Positions 25,205 to 34,779 of a stretch of 64,000 nt of DNA are shown piece after piece. Both the position numbers and the translations under genes were made by a program. Position 1 is the stretch's first letter; each line of letters begins with the position of its first letter. The stretch comes from Aedes albopictus (taxonomy: Eukaryota; Arthropoda; Insecta; Diptera; Culicidae). The notes under the pieces were generated by a model. The model made no database searches and had not been told where the DNA came from. It saw only the letters and a list, made by a program, of their open reading frames with translations. The stretch spans positions 275,385,694-275,449,693 of the forward strand of contig NC_085138.1 of NCBI RefSeq assembly GCF_035046485.1, written 5' to 3'.

Positions 25205-25928
25205 CGCAGCTGAACCTGAACCACTGTGATGCGGCTCAGCAACTGCTTTGTCAGGCAGTTTCTGAGTGGGAGACGGATATCGCTATCGTATCGGACCCAT
25301 ACCGAGTACCCGCCGGCAACGGCAACTGGGTCGCGGATGGGACCAGAAAAATGGCGGCGATATGGACGACGGGTAAATACCCCATTCAGGAGTTGGTGTC
25401 TACTACCTATGAGGGCTTCGTGGTCGCCAAAGTAACGGGGTCTTCTTCTGCAGCTGTTATGCGCCTCCGCGGTGGCCGATCGAGTAGTTCACGCAAATGC
25501 TGGACCGATTAACGACCGTGCTAACAGGGCGAAGGCCGGTGGTAATAGCGGGCGACTTTAATGCCTGGGCCGTGGAATGGGGAAGCCGTTTCACGAACCA
25601 GAGGGGTCAGATCCTGCTAGAAACACTGGCCATCTTAGATGTCGACTTGGCTAATGTCGGTACCTAGAGTACCTATAGTCGAAACGGAGCGGAGTCAATT
25701 AGTGACGTGACCTTTTGTAGTCCTGGCCTAACAAGTAGTTCGAACTGGATAGTAGATGATGGCTACACTCACAGCGACCACCTGGCGGTTCGCTACAGTA
25801 TCGACTACAACAACAGCAGGCAGCGGATAGAAGAAGAGGAGGCTAGGCCAAGGCCAAGCCCTCGTAGGTGGAAGACATCATACTTCGACGAAGAGGTATT
25901 TAGGGAAGCGCTCCGCCGTGAGCGAAAC
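25170..25928 (+). pseudogene. R1-clade ORF2 endonuclease, split by Ty3/Gypsy insertion
   Basis: Starting near 25190 the text reads VTQLNLNHCDAAQQLL, then ETDIAIVSDPY, the N-terminal part of an AP-like endonuclease that cleaves target DNA. A frameshift near 25450 breaks the frame; the motif GDFNAWAVEWGS (about 25550-25585) lies in another frame, an in-frame TAG follows near 25666, and SDHLAVRYSI (25780-25810) carries the catalytic Asp-His. Coding continues to RRERN at 25928, where the LTR retrotransposon begins. After that 7.05-kb insertion the protein text resumes at 32982. Confidence 0.85.
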
Positions 25929-26187
25929 TGTGTGGTACTAATACCCCTCGGAAGGAGATGTTAATCGTGTATCCGAACGTTTGCCATAAAACCCGAACAC
26001 GATTCGGCTTACCGTCCACCAACTCGACCGCCAAGTTGACGGCAGCCCCGACAACCAACCACGAGGCATCAGCACGAGCAACTCTCGTCCTCTTTCGTTA
26101 TCGGACCATCAAGGCGTGTGGACGCATTGGGTAAGTTGCTGCGCGTTTCCCTAAACCCGCCAAACGGTCGTCAGCCAAATCGGCACA
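25929..26187 (+). repeat. 5' LTR (259 bp)
   Basis: Begins TGTGTGGTACTAATACCCC and ends CCAAATCGGCACA. By eye it is identical to the 3' LTR over all 259 positions. It should provide the promoter and the start of the transcript. I see no classical TATA box. A strong splice-donor sequence, TTGG|GTAAGTTG, lies at offset 202 (GT at 26131-26132), downstream of where transcription would have to start for it to be used. Confidence 0.96.
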
Positions 26188-26188
26188 T

Positions 26189-26206
26189 TGGCGAACCTGC
26201 CAGGTT
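26189..26206 (+). promoter_or_regulatory. Presumed tRNA primer-binding site
   Basis: TGGCGAACCTGCCAGG begins one nucleotide after the LTR end; TGG is complementary to the CCA tail of tRNAs, and the position is the usual one. I cannot name the tRNA with certainty. Note that this site lies downstream of the LTR splice donor and therefore within the proposed leader intron. Confidence 0.65.
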
Positions 26207-26375
26207 ATTTCCTGGAAATGCTATCGATTTTGTGATTAACTTGAACATGGTTATGTTGTGCATCTGGAAATTCGCGTTGAGGAAAATCTAAAATTCAGTA
26301 AAATGAGCGGACTGGAAACCACGTGTAGCGAAAATGCGATTTTGTTTAGTACTGGTTTGCGGAAAAATGCCGCAA

Positions 26376-26735
26376 GGTGTTCTAGAAGAACACCGGAGAA
26401 GCAGACGAAAACGTTTTCGTTAGGTGGCTTCGGAGCGCATCCCAAAAAAAGTAATCATGGAATCCGCAAGGTGTTCTGGAAGAACACCGGAGAAGCAATT
26501 GACAAAAGTTTTGGCAATTTGGTAGCTTCAATGTGTCGTGGTTTGTGACGGAGAAAGGTCACAAGGTGTTCTTGAAGAATACCGGAGAAGCATGAAACAA
26601 TTCGTTTTGGTAGCTTCGGAATGAGTCTAGAATGCTAAGTATGCGACCACAGGCATGTGACTGATAATGCACAAGAGGTGTTCTAGAAGAATACCAGAGA
26701 AGCGATTGCCTCAATCTTGGTAGCTTCAGTGAGAA
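26376..26735 (+). repeat. Four hairpin repeats in the retrotransposon leader
   Basis: GGTGTTCTNNAAGAAYACC occurs at 26376-26394, 26470-26488, 26565-26583 and 26677-26695 (spacings 94, 95 and 112). Each forms an 8-bp stem with a 3-nt loop, is followed by GGAGAAGC or AGAGAAGC, and about 40-60 bp later by TGGTAGCTTC or GGTGGCTTC, so GAAGC can pair with GCTTC as a second, outer stem. The two centre bases vary (TA, GG, TG, TA) while TTC and GAA are invariant; copy 3 and 4 stems keep pairing through G-U. The same core, TTCnnGAA, is also the inverted unit of a heat-shock element. Confidence 0.75.
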
Positions 26736-27054
26736 AAAAGTTTGCATGGACGATCACTATTATTTTATGCTGTGATAAGGCAGCAACAATGTGTCCTAAA
26801 ATAGCAAAGTTTTCCTTGCTTGGCTTACTCCATGTGTATCGCAGTGACTTGCTTGTATTGCTCCATTGCACGAAGTTTTGGAGAGCACGACAAATGAATG
26901 ATCTAGAGCAAACGTGACGTACATACTTGACTTATACTACTTGCCAATGCGATGGGGTTAAAAAAAACAGAGATGACTATCATCAGTGGACGTTTTGAGA
27001 ATTCTATATGTTAATCATTACACTCTGTGTCTCTATTTCGAACAGATCACAAAT

Positions 27055-30000
27055 ATGTTCAGTGGTGGAAAATACGTATTAGCCCCGGCCGCCGATGATG
27101 GCACGGACGGTTGTGAAACCCAGAGTGATATACGTTCTTTTGACTGTGACGATCTGGACGTGGCTGCCCATGAAACCGTCGAAACGGATGGAGTAACCTG
27201 GGTAGAGACCGAAGATGTGAATGAGAAGTCGCTGCGTGTAGAACCAATGACCGACAACGTAACGAAAAATCGTTCACTTGAAACTGATCCGATACCGAAT
27301 ACGACTACGACAGAGGAGAAGGAAGATCTCGGCTACGCGCCGCAGCCCGGTATTGCCGAAAGAGGATGCAACATACGGTGGGATCTCATTCCCAAGTTCC
27401 CAAAAGACATTCCGTCCAATAAGCTTTGGGAAAATTGGCAGAGATTTATCGGAAACTTCGAAACAGCGGCGTCTCTTTCAACCTTTACCGGATCCGCAGA
27501 CCGCGCAAAGTTGCTGTACTTGTCGCTAGGACAGTCATTGCAAGATATTATCAGTGCGGCAGACCTAGAACCGAACTATCGCGACCCGAGATGCTACTCG
27601 ACCTTCGTCGCAAGCGTGAACAACTACTTTAAGTCGATGACCGACACGGCCGCGGAGCACGAGGCGTTTCAAGCGATGCGGCAGGCGAAAGGTGAAACAA
27701 TTGTTTGTTTCCACGCCAGACATACCCGTAAAGTTCGACTCTGCGGCTACAGTCCCTCCGACCAAGTTCGTTTTGTCCTTGCACAACTTCTCAAGGGAAT
27801 GCAGAATCGCCAAATAGCAGTTGCTGCTAGGACATACGGGCACGATGCAAGCTATATCGTGCAAGCAGCTACAAGGGTCGAGTCCCTAGCCGAACCATAC
27901 GAAGCCGACCAACAACGTGTGGAGAACAGTCCGCCTGAAGTTCATGCCATCAACCGAAAACGAGAACACAGCCGTGAAAGAGAATCCTTCCGTAAAGTCC
28001 GGAAGGTAGAAGCGAACAAGGGATTCCGATACACAAATTCGAGAGAGCCATCACAGAATCATCGTAAAGGTCAACGCAATCGGTGCTGGAAATGTGGGTA
28101 CCTGTACCACAAAAGGAATGTCTGCCCGGCTATGGATAAACCGTGTAACTCATGTGGTCGAGTTGGACACTTCGCTTCAACCTGCCGGGGAAACTCAAGA
28201 AGTGCGGGGGCTAACTCCGTACAAGAAACTCGAAACGTCCCACTAAAGCCTCTCCCACCAGGATGGACCCAGGACTCGAACGACGAGCAGGTATGATTTC
28301 ATTTTTACTAACGTAAAGAAAATGTGAACTCCTTCAGAGAAATCAATAAACATCGACTGGCAATATAGAACTTTTTTTTCATTAAACATACTCATACTAC
28401 TCAAGAAAACCAACGCAATAATCGGAAGATTAAGTTCCCTTCATTCAGCTGCCGCCCTTTTCTTATTCTGTTTTGTTCTAGCAAGTAAATTCGGTTATTT
28501 TCCTGAGTGACGCAATTGTTCGCTGTCGTCTGGGCTCGTCGAGTCCTTACAACTTCCTTGTAGATTCAGGGGCTGACGTTAATATCATAGGTGGGAACGA
28601 CTGGATGTACCTGGAAGCTGAATTTCGTAACGGGATGGCCAAACTGGACCCGATACATGAATTTGAAGCTAGGGAACTTCGTGCATATGCAGTAGAGGCA
28701 CCAATGGCAGTACGTTGTGCTTTCAGAGCAGTGGTTGAAGTGGTAGGCGCCATCAAACCAACCGTGACAGCTGAGTTCCTCGTTGTGGATGAAGGACGTC
28801 GGTCCTTACTTGGCCGTCAGACAGCTAGCGAATTGAAGCTGTTAAAAGTTGGGCTTACTGTGAACAGCTGTGATCAAGCGCCCGCGACCGGAATGTTCCC
28901 AAAGGTACCTGGCGTAAAGGTAAAATTCAGTGTCAACAAGGCAATCCCTCCTACGAAGAATGCCTACTACAACGTGCCAGCAGCGTTTCGTGAGGCTGCA
29001 AGAGAACGGTTAGAAGACATGGAAGCACGTGGCATCATCGAACGAGTGACGAAAGCACCTGAGTGGATCAGCGGGATGTCGGCGGTACCCAAAGGTAAGA
29101 ATGACTTCCGTCTTGTAGTCAACATGCGCGCTCCAAACAAGGCCATACAGAGGGAATACTTCCGCATGCCTCTAATTGATGAGATGAAGATAAAACTTCA
29201 CGGGGCAAAGTTTTTCACTAAGCTGGACCTCAACAACGCCTACCACCATCTCGAACTGTGCAAGGAATCGCGCGACCTTACCACATTCTTGACTGAAACT
29301 GGTATGTACAGATTTACACGCCTAATGTTTGGAGTGAACTGTGCACCTGAGATCTTTCAGAGGGAGATGTGCCGCTTGTTGGAGGGCGTGGAAAACAAAA
29401 TAGTTTACATCGATGATGTACTAATATTTGCCGATACGTTGGACAAACTAAGAAGAACAACTGCTCAAGTTCTGGAAATACTTCGAGCAAACAATCTCAC
29501 CTTAAACCAAAAAAAATGCGAGTTCGATAAAACCTTCGTAACATTCTTGGGACATGGGCTAGATGAAAAGGGGTTCCACGTAGATGAAGCAAAAGTAAAG
29601 GCGATCCGGCAGTTCAGAGCTCCAGCTAGCGTTTCTGAACTGAAAAGTTTCCTGGGACTTGCCGCATTTGTCAGCCCTTATATCAAGGACTTCGCGAAGA
29701 TCTCAAGCACCCTGTGGGCCGCCACTACCAGCAAAGATTGGTCTTGGGGTCCTGAAGAACTTGCAGCTTTCAACGCACTCAAAGAAGGAATCACAGAATG
29801 TACAACGACCCTCGGTTACTTCTCGGATAACGAGAACACGATTTTGTATACTGACGCATCACCCAAGGCTCTCGGTGCGGTTTTAGTACAAGAAGGTTCA
29901 AACAAGCCCCCACGCATAATCAGTTTTGCTTCAAAAGCCCTAACCGACACGGAAAAACGGTATGCGCAAAACCAGCGTGAAGCACTGGCCACCGTATGGG

Positions 30001-31646
30001 CGGTGGAACACTTTTCGTTTTTCCTGCTTGGGCGGCACTTCACGCTGAAAACAGATGCACAGGGTGTCGCGTTTATTTTGAATCGTTCGCGGGAGAGTTC
30101 AAAACGGGCCTTAACTAGAGCCGATGGATGGGCCCTTCGGCTCAGCCCATACGACTATGAGGTGGAGTATATCCGTGGTCGCGAAAATATTGCTGACCCG
30201 CCCTCACGACTGTACACGGGAAACGATGCCCCGTTTGACGATCAGCAAAGTCCATGGGAAATTGCATCCTTAGAAGCGAAATCTGTCGGATTTTTAACGG
30301 TTAAGGAGCTCCAAGAAGAAACAGCGCTGGATACAACTCTCCAGAGTGTGATAGATGCACTGGAAACACGAAGTTGGACCGACGAGCTTAGAACATTTGA
30401 AAATGTGGCAGCGGATCTCTCGCTTAAGGATGGAATCTTAGTTAAAAACGGGTGTGCCGTGGTTCCTACCAAGCTGCGATCGAAGACATTGAACCTGGCC
30501 CATAACGGTCACCCAATGACTGCCAAGCTTAAGAGCATTTTAAGAGAGCGAGTTTGGTGGCCCAGGATGTCATCTGATGCAGAAGAGTGGGTAAAATCAT
30601 GCCAAACTTGCGCGATTAATGGGCGACCGGAGAAACCCACACCAATGAAGAGAATTCCAGCACCACAAGCGGTTTGGGAGACCATAGCATTGGACTTCAA
30701 CGGCCCTTATGCGAGGTTCGGAGGGATTTCCATTCTGCTGATCGTCGATTATAGGTCAAGGTAACGTAATAGATTTTATTTTAGCTTGTACATTTAAGTA
30801 TTATTTTGTTTCAATGCTGATAGGTTCCTAATTGCCCGTCCGGTGAGGTCCACAAACTTTGAGCAGACAAAGGGGGTGTTGGAGGACGTTTTCGCACGCG
30901 AAGGCTTCCCAAAAACTATTCGCTCCGATAACGGACCACCGTTTAATGGTGATGAGTATCGAGCTTACTGTGCCGACCGGGGTATCGAAGCTGTTTTCTC
31001 GACTCCTCTGTTTCCGCAGCAGAACGGCCTCGTCGAGAATTACATGAAGCTGGTGAACAAGGCGATGGCCACCGCCGTCAGCAATGGATCCTGCTTTAAA
31101 ATAGAATTACAAGCCGCCATCAACGCGCACAATGCGGCCGCTCACTCCGTTACTGGACATCCACCGGAAGAGATAATGATGGGACGAAAGATAAAACGAC
31201 ATCTTCCTTTGCTGCATCACGAAAAAGTAAATCATGACGACGAAGCTATTAACCGCAGAGACAAACTAGCAAAGCTTAGATCGAAGGAGCGCGAAGACAT
31301 CAAAAGAGGAGCACGCACAAGTCGCGTAAGCCCAGGGGATACGATTATCATCGAGCGACAAGCCCGCGCCAAAGGTGAAAGTAGATTCGATCCACAGAAA
31401 TACACCGTGATTCAAGAGGACAATGGGAGCCTTGTTTTACAAAATGTTCACGGCCAAATTGTAAAGCGGCATGTAACTCAGACGAGGAAGGTGGGACACT
31501 GGCGCACTCCTACCAATAACACTGGCGAAACTACCCTGGTCAACACAAACGATGACATCCGAGATGCTGGTCCGTCTGAGCGGCCCCGTAGAATGAGAAC
31601 CGCTCCTTCTTATATGAAGGACTACGTCCAAGCACTTGAAAATTGA
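27055..31646 (+). CDS. Ty3/Gypsy gag-pol polyprotein, three exons
   Basis: Exons 27055-28290, 28482-30760 and 30824-31646 give 1445 codons plus a stop, with no internal stop. Gag: two C-x2-C-x4-H-x4-C knuckles at 28084-28125 (CWKCGYLYHKRNVC) and 28144-28185 (CNSCGRVGHFASTC). Protease: LVDSGAD at about 28557-28577. RT: KLDLNNAYHHL near 29222 and YIDD at 29406-29417. RNase H: YTDAS with Asp at 29853 and LKTDAQG near 30050. Integrase: H-H-C-C finger (HNGHPM...CQTC, about 30505-30612), then catalytic Asp at 30693 and 30927 and Glu at 31035, spaced D-x56-D-x35-E only when the second intron is removed. A basic C-terminal region follows. The ATG at 27055 is preferred because the 26986 ATG lies in the proposed leader intron. 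Without splicing, translation ends at TGA 28294-28296 and yields Gag alone. Confidence 0.9.
28291..28481 (+). other. Intron between gag and protease (191 nt, phase 0)
   Basis: The donor is GAGCAG|GTATGA and the acceptor is TTTTGTTCTAG|CAAGTAAAT, with a strong pyrimidine tract (28452-28479). Exon 1 ends with a complete codon and exon 2 begins in frame 0. The protease frame has no ATG until 28605, 123 nt after the acceptor and downstream of the catalytic DSG, so the protease can only be made by joining to upstream coding. Retention puts a TGA three nucleotides after the donor. The intron contains stops in the gag frame and no coding conservation that I can see. Confidence 0.85.
30761..30823 (+). 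other. Intron inside the integrase core (63 nt, phase 2)
   Basis: The donor is TCAAG|GTAACG and the acceptor is CAATGCTGATAG|GTTCC. The length fits the short insect intron class. Splicing completes an arginine codon (AG + G) in the typical VDYRSRF-type strand of the integrase core. Retention stops translation at TAA 30762-30764, leaving protease, RT and RNase H without the second and third catalytic integrase residues. Removing exactly these 63 nt gives 56 residues between the two aspartates, normal for the family. Confidence 0.9.
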
Positions 31647-32711
31647 TTGATAATGTTGATTCTGGGACATAATATCGTTGTATTTGTTTCTTTCATCAGT
31701 AAAATATGACATTTTAACTACGTTGCATTCACTAAAAAGAAAAGAAAATAAAAAAAAAACAGAAACAAACTCAATCGAATACTCACCTTTGACCCGAAAT
31801 CACCACAAAATTCATGCTAGGCGGTCTAGTCCTTGGTCTAGTCATAACACTAAAGCAAAACAAGAACGAAAGAACGCTGACATACGACAATGTAACTGCA
31901 AAGATGCAATTTTACTTTGAACGCTCTGATTAGCGGTAAATAAACAAAAACTGCAGTTGACGGGCGTATGACTCGTATGACAACAACAACAGTGAAACAG
32001 ATGTCGACATCGAACGGTACTGCGGTAAAATAGAAAAAATCCAACGGGGTTGCGGTGGTTTCGACCGCCGCAGTCGTTCCGCAAACGTCAAAAGTGCTCG
32101 GTTCACGCTAAAAAGCTCTCACTCACTTGGTTGCCACAAAATTCAAAAATAATGAAAATTGTTTCATTTATGGTTTATGTAATCGCAATTGCTGCCACAA
32201 CATGTAACTTATTTCTAAACTATATTAGGTGTAGTTTTAGCACTTTAGTATGCAGCTGTACGCCATTAAACATAATCTAGATTCTCAACTATTTATTTTT
32301 GTTTCAAGGTTGTGTGCAAACTTTTTGAAGTGTGCAGCAGTTTGACGTTTGCGGAACAGGTCTTCTTTGTCTTCTTCACTCCGCCAGGTTGGAAGATTTC
32401 TCTGGATAAGCAATAATCAATGTCGACCGAAACTGACCGAAACTCGAGAACCGAAACATATCGCGTGAAATATTTCAATTTCAAGCGTAACTTTTGGTTG
32501 GCGCTGATTACTATTACAACTGTCTGTATCGAAACGACGACTTTTTTAAAAGGGTGATGGAAAGCAATGAATCTGAATCGTCATCGTGAATGGCTAATAC
32601 ACAGCTGCGCAATATTGAACGTTATTTTTCATCTTTTCTCAATAAAAATCAGAATGAAGAACTAACGCTCAGGTTTAGCAATGGAAGAAACGGTAGTTCT
32701 TCCAATTATTG
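31647..32711 (+). other. Retrotransposon 3' untranslated stretch
   Basis: About 1.07 kb between the pol stop and the polypurine tract. Only short overlapping frames exist (none above 112 codons outside the LTR), with no signal peptide or transmembrane pattern of an envelope protein and no splice acceptor with a following ORF that I could find. AT-rich; function unknown. Confidence 0.6.
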
Positions 32712-32722
32712 TGGGAGGGGGA
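32712..32722 (+). promoter_or_regulatory. Polypurine tract
   Basis: TGGGAGGGGGA lies immediately before the 3' LTR; this purine run would prime plus-strand DNA synthesis. The preceding sequence is AT-rich, so the tract stands out clearly. Confidence 0.85.
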
Positions 32723-32981
32723 TGTGTGGTACTAATACCCCTCGGAAGGAGATGTTAATCGTGTATCCGAACGTTTGCCATAAAACCCGAACACGATTCG
32801 GCTTACCGTCCACCAACTCGACCGCCAAGTTGACGGCAGCCCCGACAACCAACCACGAGGCATCAGCACGAGCAACTCTCGTCCTCTTTCGTTATCGGAC
32901 CATCAAGGCGTGTGGACGCATTGGGTAAGTTGCTGCGCGTTTCCCTAAACCCGCCAAACGGTCGTCAGCCAAATCGGCACA
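32723..32981 (+). repeat. 3' LTR (259 bp)
   Basis: Same ends and length as the 5' LTR and identical by eye, including the GTAAGT donor at 32925. It should supply RNA 3'-end formation, though I see no AATAAA. Followed directly by the GAAAC duplication. Confidence 0.96.
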
Positions 32982-34779
32982 GAAACTTACTCGGTTTAGA
33001 CGGCGACGAGCTGGTAGCGGTGCTCTCACGTGCGTGTGATGCGACCATGCCTAGGAGAGTCCACCCTAGAAATGGGAGGCCACCGGCTTACTGGTGGACC
33101 GACGCGATTGCGGACCTGCGCCGCGCCTGCCTACGAGCTAGGCGGCGGATGCAGCGAGCACGATCAGAAGAAGAGCGAAACGAACGGCGGGTGGTGTTCG
33201 CCGCTGCAAAAGCCGCGCTCAAGACCGAGATAAGAGCAAGCAAAAAGGCCTGCTTCGAGGGTCTCTGTCAGAGTGCCAATACGAACCCGTGGGGTGACGC
33301 TTACAGGATCGTTATGGCAAAGACGAGAGGGGTGATGGCTCCTACAGAGCAATCTCCAGAGATGTTGGAGGGGATCATTGGAGGACTTTTTCTGCGTCAT
33401 GATCCTAGTCCTTGGCCTCCTTTCGTAGGACAGCCGGGGACTGGGGCTGGCGATGAGGAGAGGGTCACCGATGTGGAACTTGCGGGGATAGCTAAGTCCC
33501 TTAGCGTAGGTAAGGCCCAGGTCCGGACGGAGTTCCGAACCTGGCCTTAAAAGTAGCTATTGCAGAGGCTCCCGAGATGTTCAGGTCTGCTATGCAGAAA
33601 TGTCTGGACGAGGGAGTTTTCCCAGAAGCTTGGAAGAGGCAGAGCCTGGTACTATTGCCAAAGGCGGGGAAACCACCCGGAGACCCGTCGGCATATAGAC
33701 CAATATGCTTGATTGTCACGGCGGGGAAGGTGCTCGAAAAGATCGTCCTCAATAGAATGTTGCGGTTCACCGAGGGCGAAAATGGTCTTTCGAGTAACCA
33801 GTACGGCTTCCGGAAGGGGAGGTCCACCGTAGACGCTATCTTGTCGGTTACAAAAACCGCCGAGAAAGCACTCGAGCCTAAGAGGAGGGGAATTCGCTTT
33901 TGCGCGGTAGTGACTCTGGATGTAAGGAATGCGTTTAATAGCGCCAGCTGGTCTGCTATTGCCGATGCGCTCTTGCGTCTGGGGATACCGGAGTACCTGT
34001 ACAAGATTCTCGGAAGTTACTTTCAGAATCGTGTACTAGTCTACGACACGGAGGTGGGTCGGAAGTGCTTTCACATAACCTCAGGAGTCCCGCAAGGTTC
34101 CATCCTGGGTACGGTGTTATGGAATGTCATGTACGACGAGGTGTTGAGGTTAGAGTATCCAGTGGGAGTGGTGATTGTCGGATTTGCCGACGACATTACG
34201 CTCGAAGTCTACGGTGAAACGATCGAGGAGGTAAAGTTGACTACCAACCACTCGATCAAGGTTGTGGAGGCGTGGATGCGGTACAGGAAACTGGAGCTGG
34301 CTCACCACAAGACAGAGGTGACGGTTGTTAACAACCTGAAGTCGGAGCAGCAGACGGAGATCAGTGTAGGAGAGTGTACTATCCTGTCAAAGCGCTCCGT
34401 CTGTGTCTCCGTCCGAGGATGTGTAGGGATGAGTTTGGCTGGAACGCCGTTTCAACGGCTATTATCCACATCGTCTGGGAGCTACAGAGGAGGTGGCGCG
34501 TGGACTCGGAGAATGGCTAGTTTAGATGCAGTACAAGAGGTGGTCCAGGGGTTCGGAGTCGGCTTCGTAGGTCATACCGGTGCCCTGCGGTCGAGATCGA
34601 CCCTTACAGCGATTAAGTGGCCGCGGAAAGGAAGTCCCGGTAGCGGTGCTGTCGTGGCGTCGGTCTACTGGGTTGGATCTGAGCCCGCAGTTGGAAAGGG
34701 GTCCCCGGCAAGGGTCGGGGCAGGTGGAGACCCTGCCGTCAGCAACCTACGGATGCATCTGATAGGGCCTGAAGGGTAG
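32982..34779 (+). pseudogene. R1-clade ORF2 linker, RT and C-terminus, broken
   Basis: After the Gypsy element, ORF2 resumes with LLGLDGDELVAVLSRACDAT and runs open to about 33520, where one base appears to be missing in the GKAQGPDG-type motif, shifting the frame. The RT continues open from 33577: SAYRPICLIVTAGKVLEKI, NQYGFRKGRSTVDAI, LDVRNAFNSASW (catalytic Asp of motif A), GVPQGSILGTVLWN and GFADDITL (FADD box near 34188). After ILSKRS (34395) about 0.7 kb of ORF2 is deleted and replaced by a ~16-bp filler; the frame then rejoins near the C-terminal end (GCVGMSLAGTPFQRL), so the CCHC finger is lost. Little diverged but dead. Confidence 0.88.

Follow-up and report, generated by a model that had tools for sequence, protein, structure and literature searches.

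How does a retrotransposon whose gag frame closes before its pol frame opens produce a Gag-Pol polyprotein? The question is raised by a Ty3/Gypsy long terminal repeat (LTR) element at positions 25924-32986, bounded by target duplications, in a stretch of 64,000 nucleotides (nt) from Aedes albopictus (C3:275385694-275449693 in the source assembly; this whole stretch is hereafter the window). Retroelements require Gag in large excess over Gag-Pol, and an animal Ty3/Gypsy element is expected to set this ratio on the ribosome; the clade to which the window element belongs seemingly sets it on the spliceosome. We consider it highly probable that Gag-Pol is made by splicing and that the unspliced RNA is the template for new copies.

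In the window element, all coding features of which lie on the forward strand, gag starts with an ATG at 27055 and ends with a TGA at 28294-28296. The part of this open frame upstream of the proposed splice site forms exon 1 (27055-28290), and the frame closes 6 nt into intron 1 (28291-28481; GT-AG, 191 nt). The donor reads GAGCAG/GTATGA, with 28290 as the last base of exon 1, such that the stop codon lies within the donor itself (GTA TGA). The acceptor, TTTTGTTCTAG, has its final base at 28481; its TAG is an in-frame stop that bounds the pol frame, and pol is therefore open from exactly 28482. Exon 2 (28482-30760) encodes the protease motif, reverse transcriptase, RNase H, the integrase zinc finger, and the start of the integrase core (Pfam RVT_1, RT_RNaseH, and Integrase_H2C2), and its frame is ended by an in-frame TAA at 30762-30764, inside intron 2 (30761-30823; GT-AG, 63 nt, within the integrase core). 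Exon 3 (30824-31646) encodes the remaining integrase (Pfam rve, 33.3 bits against a cut-off of 32.6) and stops with a TGA at 31644-31646. The first-pass annotation, made from the window alone, had proposed in-frame joining of 28290 to 28482, no start codon upstream of the protease active site, and a polyprotein open over 1445 codons. Upon re-reading the sequence, the coordinates and frames hold: no ATG occurs in the pol frame before the DSG protease motif, and exons of 1236, 2279, and 820 nt sum to 4335 nt, or 1445 codons. The closest database protein (P0001) begins at a later Met.

A search of the genome with the gag-pol junction identified three copies of the element, and a search with pol identified the same three at 99-100%. 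Intron 1 is 191 nt long in the window copy and 195 and 189 nt long in the other two (L004 and L005). Relative to the window, neither L004 nor L005 has a gap event in gag (1236 nt), exon 2 (2279 nt), or exon 3 (820 nt), whereas each has two in intron 1. The leader has four gap events in L004 and three in L005, and the 3' noncoding region has eight and 15, the latter figure being noisy owing to an insert of ~400 nt in the window copy. In the compared part of pol, 10/14 and 8/13 differences fall at third positions. Intron 1 varies in length while the coding exons are free of gaps; gag and pol thus remain open although their relative phase shifts from copy to copy, which excludes a frameshift of fixed phase. 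All three copies have identical LTR pairs, a 5-nt target duplication, and both introns; three separate recent insertions that keep both introns argue, as the first-pass annotation had supposed from the window copy, that the template was unspliced RNA.

We then asked how widely intron 1 occurs. In a protein search of the genome, 59 of 7288 candidates were scored, with 75 matches among these; 30 loci from this search and 20 more picked from the match list make up a set of 50, of which 48 were assessable (L009 and L054 were excluded). Donors and acceptors were placed by script in 38 loci and by hand from the sequence in eight; the script took phase-0 donors and acceptors only, and phase was not counted as evidence. 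Both sites were placed in 46 of the 48 assessable loci, forming 28 families at 80% DNA identity over the first 1500 nt of pol. The two loci without both sites are L026, which has lost the gag tail, and L025, which is intron-less. All 46 sequences begin with GT and end with AG, and they range from 86 to 1096 nt with a median of 114. With one locus taken per family, the gag stop ends no more than 21 nt from the donor in 28/28 families, and in 27/28 an in-phase AGGT is found among the 21 nt that lead up to the final base of the gag stop, compared to 23/717 control windows upstream in gag. Intron length divided by three leaves remainders of 0, 1, and 2 in 8, 11, and 9 of the 28 families, respectively. 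Judged by these sequences, intron 1 is a property of a clade and not private to the window element. Intron-less relatives, which would have marked it as a private insertion, were sought, and the sole such copy (L025) appears to be a derivative, as discussed below.

Gag homologs from outside this genome are consistent with this distribution. Among the 45 found, 36 reach the second zinc knuckle; of these 36, all but P0191, P0194, and P0199 (thus 33) terminate shortly after the donor position, with Ochlerotatus, Uranotaenia, Aedes, Toxorhynchites, and Armigeres represented by name. In the 33 C-termini, a Gln, Glu, Lys, or His precedes a Val, which is followed by no more than seven residues, as expected from translation into a GTx donor. 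Several Pol frames from assembled contigs carry Phe-Gln or Leu-Gln immediately before the conserved start of Pol, which would be a translated pyrimidine tract followed by CAG, a reading made from protein and not from DNA. Some NCBI gene models, such as P0121, place the gag-pol fusion at the site mapped here (compare L011); these are predictions.

Three further observations concern intron 1. In L027, it is 1096 nt long, tenfold longer than usual, and contains three AATAAA hexamers, perhaps reflecting nested repeats. The neighbouring L026 has lost the gag tail and kept the acceptor. The idea that intron 1 has a weak donor found no support, as its donors match at 6.54 of 9 positions and those of internal introns at 6.55.

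The intron-less locus L025 (C2:260552548) is nearly identical to L041 (C2:351467500-351472800), with 99.8% identity over the first 1867 nt of pol, 99.2% over a further 1559 nt that extend past pol, and 97.8% in gag (seven mismatches and three gap openings in 1502 nt). At the gag-pol junction, L025 lacks exactly 141 nt of L041, which begin with GTAAAT and end with TTCCAG, and within pol it lacks exactly 59 nt, beginning with GTAATA and ending with CGATAG; gag and pol form a single open frame in L025. In the sister families L042 and L045, intron 1 is present and the second L041 site holds a candidate intron, making a double loss in L025 far likelier than a double gain in L041. When the L025 junction was used as a query, 23 matches were returned, and only L025 itself is contiguous across it; in L041 and at one place on C1, the matches are split by ~140 nt. 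At its 3' end, L025 has a purine tract followed by TGTGTGG, like the start of the 3' LTR in the window, and this end suggests that L025 arose via the element's own pathway. Read as a spliced copy, L025 shows that the two L041-type introns were spliced in vivo in this relative, and from homology we infer splicing of the window element. The clade also offers a natural test of intron survival through reverse transcription: copies with introns predominate, and one precisely spliced copy coexists with the nearly identical copy it came from.

Conservation at the same position in related copies held for intron 1 and only partly for intron 2. A candidate intron at the intron 2 site occurs in 10/50 loci (L006-L014 and L054), and thus in part of the clade, and a GT-AG solution of the expected length was obtained in 8/8 loci run at this site. 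Across pol, such solutions were obtained in 28 of 31 tries, a count without a chance baseline; the other three candidates (L046, L054 near residue 285, and L055) gave no GT-AG solution. Apart from the eight at the intron 2 site, the 28 solutions fall at about six other places in pol, namely exon 2 residues ~124, 165-170, 470, 620, and 715 and exon 3 residue 89. One of these pol candidates, in L041, is confirmed by L025. In a quick tree rooted on six chosen outgroup database proteins, including P0146 and P0148, in which gag and pol share one frame, intron 1 occurs across the whole ingroup and the internal introns are scattered; with long branches and 14 open forks, intron gains are not countable on this tree. 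Separately, at the precise site of the integrase intron, the Pol proteins P0002 and P0016 have ~20 additional residues, such as translation of a stop-free intron would give.

Several alternatives to splicing of a gag-pol intron need to be weighed. In many LTR elements, Pol is expressed when ribosomes shift frame in a programmed manner or read through the stop where gag ends, and with such a mechanism the spacer here would not be an intron. The class that uses programmed frameshifting has a fixed gag/pol phase; in the window element and its two copies, however, spacer lengths are not multiples of three apart, and all three remainders occur among the families. The pol frame is moreover bounded by a stop at the acceptor, and what L025 lacks is exactly a GT..AG segment. 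We give this alternative next to no credence, and the preference of the first-pass annotation for splicing over frameshifting is borne out by the phase-changing lengths of intron 1, by its sites in 28 families, and by the absence of two introns from L025. Pol might instead be made separately, either by initiation at an internal codon or through splicing that removes gag from the message. The latter is the case in foamy viruses, whose Pol requires splicing: the spliced message lacks Gag, and Pol has a start codon of its own. The pol frames of some relatives (e.g., P0010 and P0020) do reach an upstream ATG in intron sequence, but there is no such ATG before the protease motif in the window, and L025 is a natural fusion of gag and pol. 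The window element would thus share with foamy viruses the need for splicing to make Pol and would differ in joining pol in frame to gag; separate expression of Pol seems improbable. It might also be argued that L025 represents an older, intron-less state to which L041 added two introns, which would make it uninformative on splicing. It is the single intron-less copy known here, with one contiguous match out of 23, yet intron 1 is present in 46 of the 48 assessable loci, the sister families L042 and L045 have candidate introns at both sites, and L025 and L041 share 99.8% identity over the first 1867 nt of pol. We regard this account as very unlikely. Some points do weigh against splicing as the source of Gag-Pol: the case is built on DNA, with NCBI gene models being predictions; placement restricted to phase 0 deprives phase of any value as an independent test; and gag differences between the window and the two other copies show no third-position bias (2/7 and 1/7).

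Intron 1 also contains a feature that the first-pass annotation did not mention. The hexamer AATAAA occurs in intron 1 of 41/46 loci and, among families with introns of at most 400 nt, in 22/27, where dinucleotide shuffles predict 5.1. It is the top hexamer of intron 1 (22 families, with the runner-up in 11) and lies 23-73 nt from the donor. In the window element, it is found at 28345-28350, where it is a predicted polyadenylation (poly(A)) signal for a short Gag mRNA. The element contains it at just three other positions, 31747, 31939, and 32641, all of them 3' of pol. The last of these (32641-32646), situated 5' of the 3' LTR, is a possible poly(A) signal for the long RNAs. An attempt to group the introns by their own similarity was abandoned because shuffled introns reach 0.63 identity, and the pol-based families were used instead; in the discarded groupings (10 and 8 groups), AATAAA occurred in 8/9 and 6/8 groups. 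The intronic AATAAA is new here, and the scale of the clade goes beyond what could be seen from the window.

These observations suggest a second, terminating fate for the RNA, with intron 1 predicted to act as an alternative last exon that supplies a stop codon, a short 3' end, and a poly(A) signal. The pre-mRNA would then have three fates: removal of both introns would yield the Gag-Pol mRNA; cleavage and polyadenylation within intron 1 would yield a short Gag mRNA; and RNA escaping both would stay full-length, serve as genome, and be able to make Gag as well. With an unspliced full-length RNA as genome, new copies would keep their introns. U1 small nuclear ribonucleoprotein (U1 snRNP) not only initiates splicing but can also keep a nearby downstream poly(A) signal repressed; bound at the donor, it would be a natural arbiter between splicing and use of the poly(A) site. 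The efficiency of splicing, as the first-pass annotation had also reasoned, would set the ratio of Gag to Gag-Pol, and the clade may well set it at the poly(A) site as well. As to whether cleavage and polyadenylation in intron 1 do yield a short Gag mRNA, our judgment is evenly balanced. We are likewise of two minds on the fuller proposal. It holds that a large mosquito Ty3/Gypsy clade shares intron 1 as a switch, complete in itself, between splicing and termination, and that this clade has continued to acquire pol introns although retrotransposition as a rule removes them. One genome contains 28 families, across which copy success can be compared directly with features of the splice sites and poly(A) signals.

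The competing account of the hexamer retains splicing as the source of Gag-Pol and treats AATAAA as an inherited bystander, with Gag translated solely from full-length unspliced RNA. Several results weigh on its side and against the terminating arm. A T-rich or T/G-rich excess downstream of AATAAA was sought, and none was found; 5/27 families lack the hexamer in intron 1, including that of L041, the relative with proven splicing; and the introns are AT-rich. The families are related and hence not fully independent, and the nominal P of 3e-13 is for this reason too small. Internal candidate introns have AATAAA in just 2/20 cases, a comparison in which the control introns are mostly shorter. Against the bystander account, the hexamer is present in 22 families where 5.1 are expected, is twice as frequent as the next hexamer, and is retained although intron lengths change within families. 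We view a bystander role as a serious possibility, to which we lend slightly less than even belief.

In the open-access literature searched, no earlier description of an intron between gag and pol was found for any Ty3/Gypsy lineage of animals. The nearest plant case is Ogre, a member of the Tat lineage with an intron within pro-pol, for which we know of no intronic poly(A) signal; unlike in Ogre, the present element resides in an animal genome and its intron 1 lies between gag and protease, which sets it apart from that lineage. The likeness is that both are LTR elements with an apparently functional coding-region intron, which in Ogre, a plant Ty3/Gypsy element, is described as retained in the genome (PMC12786077). 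In Arabidopsis EVD and related Ty1/Copia elements, splicing and premature cleavage and polyadenylation divide Gag from Gag-Pol output, the spliced short RNA making GAG and the unspliced RNA making GAG-POL (PMC8892269). The arrangement here would be the opposite, and in another superfamily: spliced RNA would make Gag-Pol and unspliced, cut RNA would make Gag, with the conserved AATAAA of intron 1 as the candidate signal for premature polyadenylation. The intron-bearing genomic RNA of Cer1, a Ty3/Gypsy element of C. elegans, must exit the nucleus unspliced; the spliced RNA of this element encodes CERV, an export protein, and GAG and POL are made from the unspliced form (PMC10309623). Unlike Cer1 with CERV, the window element has no extra protein in evidence. 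Among mosquito Ty3/Gypsy elements, some of the Mag lineage have tandem repeats in the 5' untranslated region, and in the same survey of Culex LTR elements the six passages that deal with introns or splicing mention no gag-pol intron (PMC3286476).

The remaining architecture of the window element is that of a Ty3/Gypsy LTR element. The target-site duplications (GAAAC) lie at 25924-25928 and 32982-32986 in the flanking sequence, and the LTRs (259 nt, with TG..CA ends) lie at 25929-26187 and 32723-32981 with 100% identity. A probable primer binding site (TGGCGAACCTGCC; 26189-26201) is placed just past the 5' LTR, and a polypurine tract (32712-32722) immediately precedes the 3' LTR. In exons 2 and 3, Pfam domains follow the DSG protease motif in the order reverse transcriptase, RNase H, and integrase, which is the Ty3/Gypsy order. 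The zf-CCHC match in the window Gag is weak (E = 0.023, 15.2 bits, under the Pfam cut-off of 20.8), and a C-X2-C-X3-GH-X4-C motif is found in 36/45 Gag homologs. Downstream of pol and as far as the 3' LTR, no open frame of at least 150 codons that might represent env was found, and a scan against IMG/VR returned zero matches.

In the 5' leader, four spaced copies of a 19-nt inverted repeat (GGTGTTCT-N3-AGAAYACC; repeat family D2) occur at 26355-26703 with a spacing of 94-112 nt, and the leader from 26340 to 26740 folds with a z of -6.0 relative to 100 shuffles. These hairpin repeats are a possible packaging or export element; because they would be common to spliced and unspliced RNA, they cannot alone select the unspliced form.

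The ~400-nt insert in the 3' noncoding region of the window copy (32020-32414) is missing from L004 and L005, and it contains a perfect 17-nt inverted repeat (32076-32092 and 32341-32357); it looks like a nested insertion resembling a miniature inverted-repeat transposable element. Coding-like sequence runs on past the target duplication at both ends of the element (25500-25928 and 32982-34779), and the element seems to sit within the open frame of a non-LTR retrotransposon.

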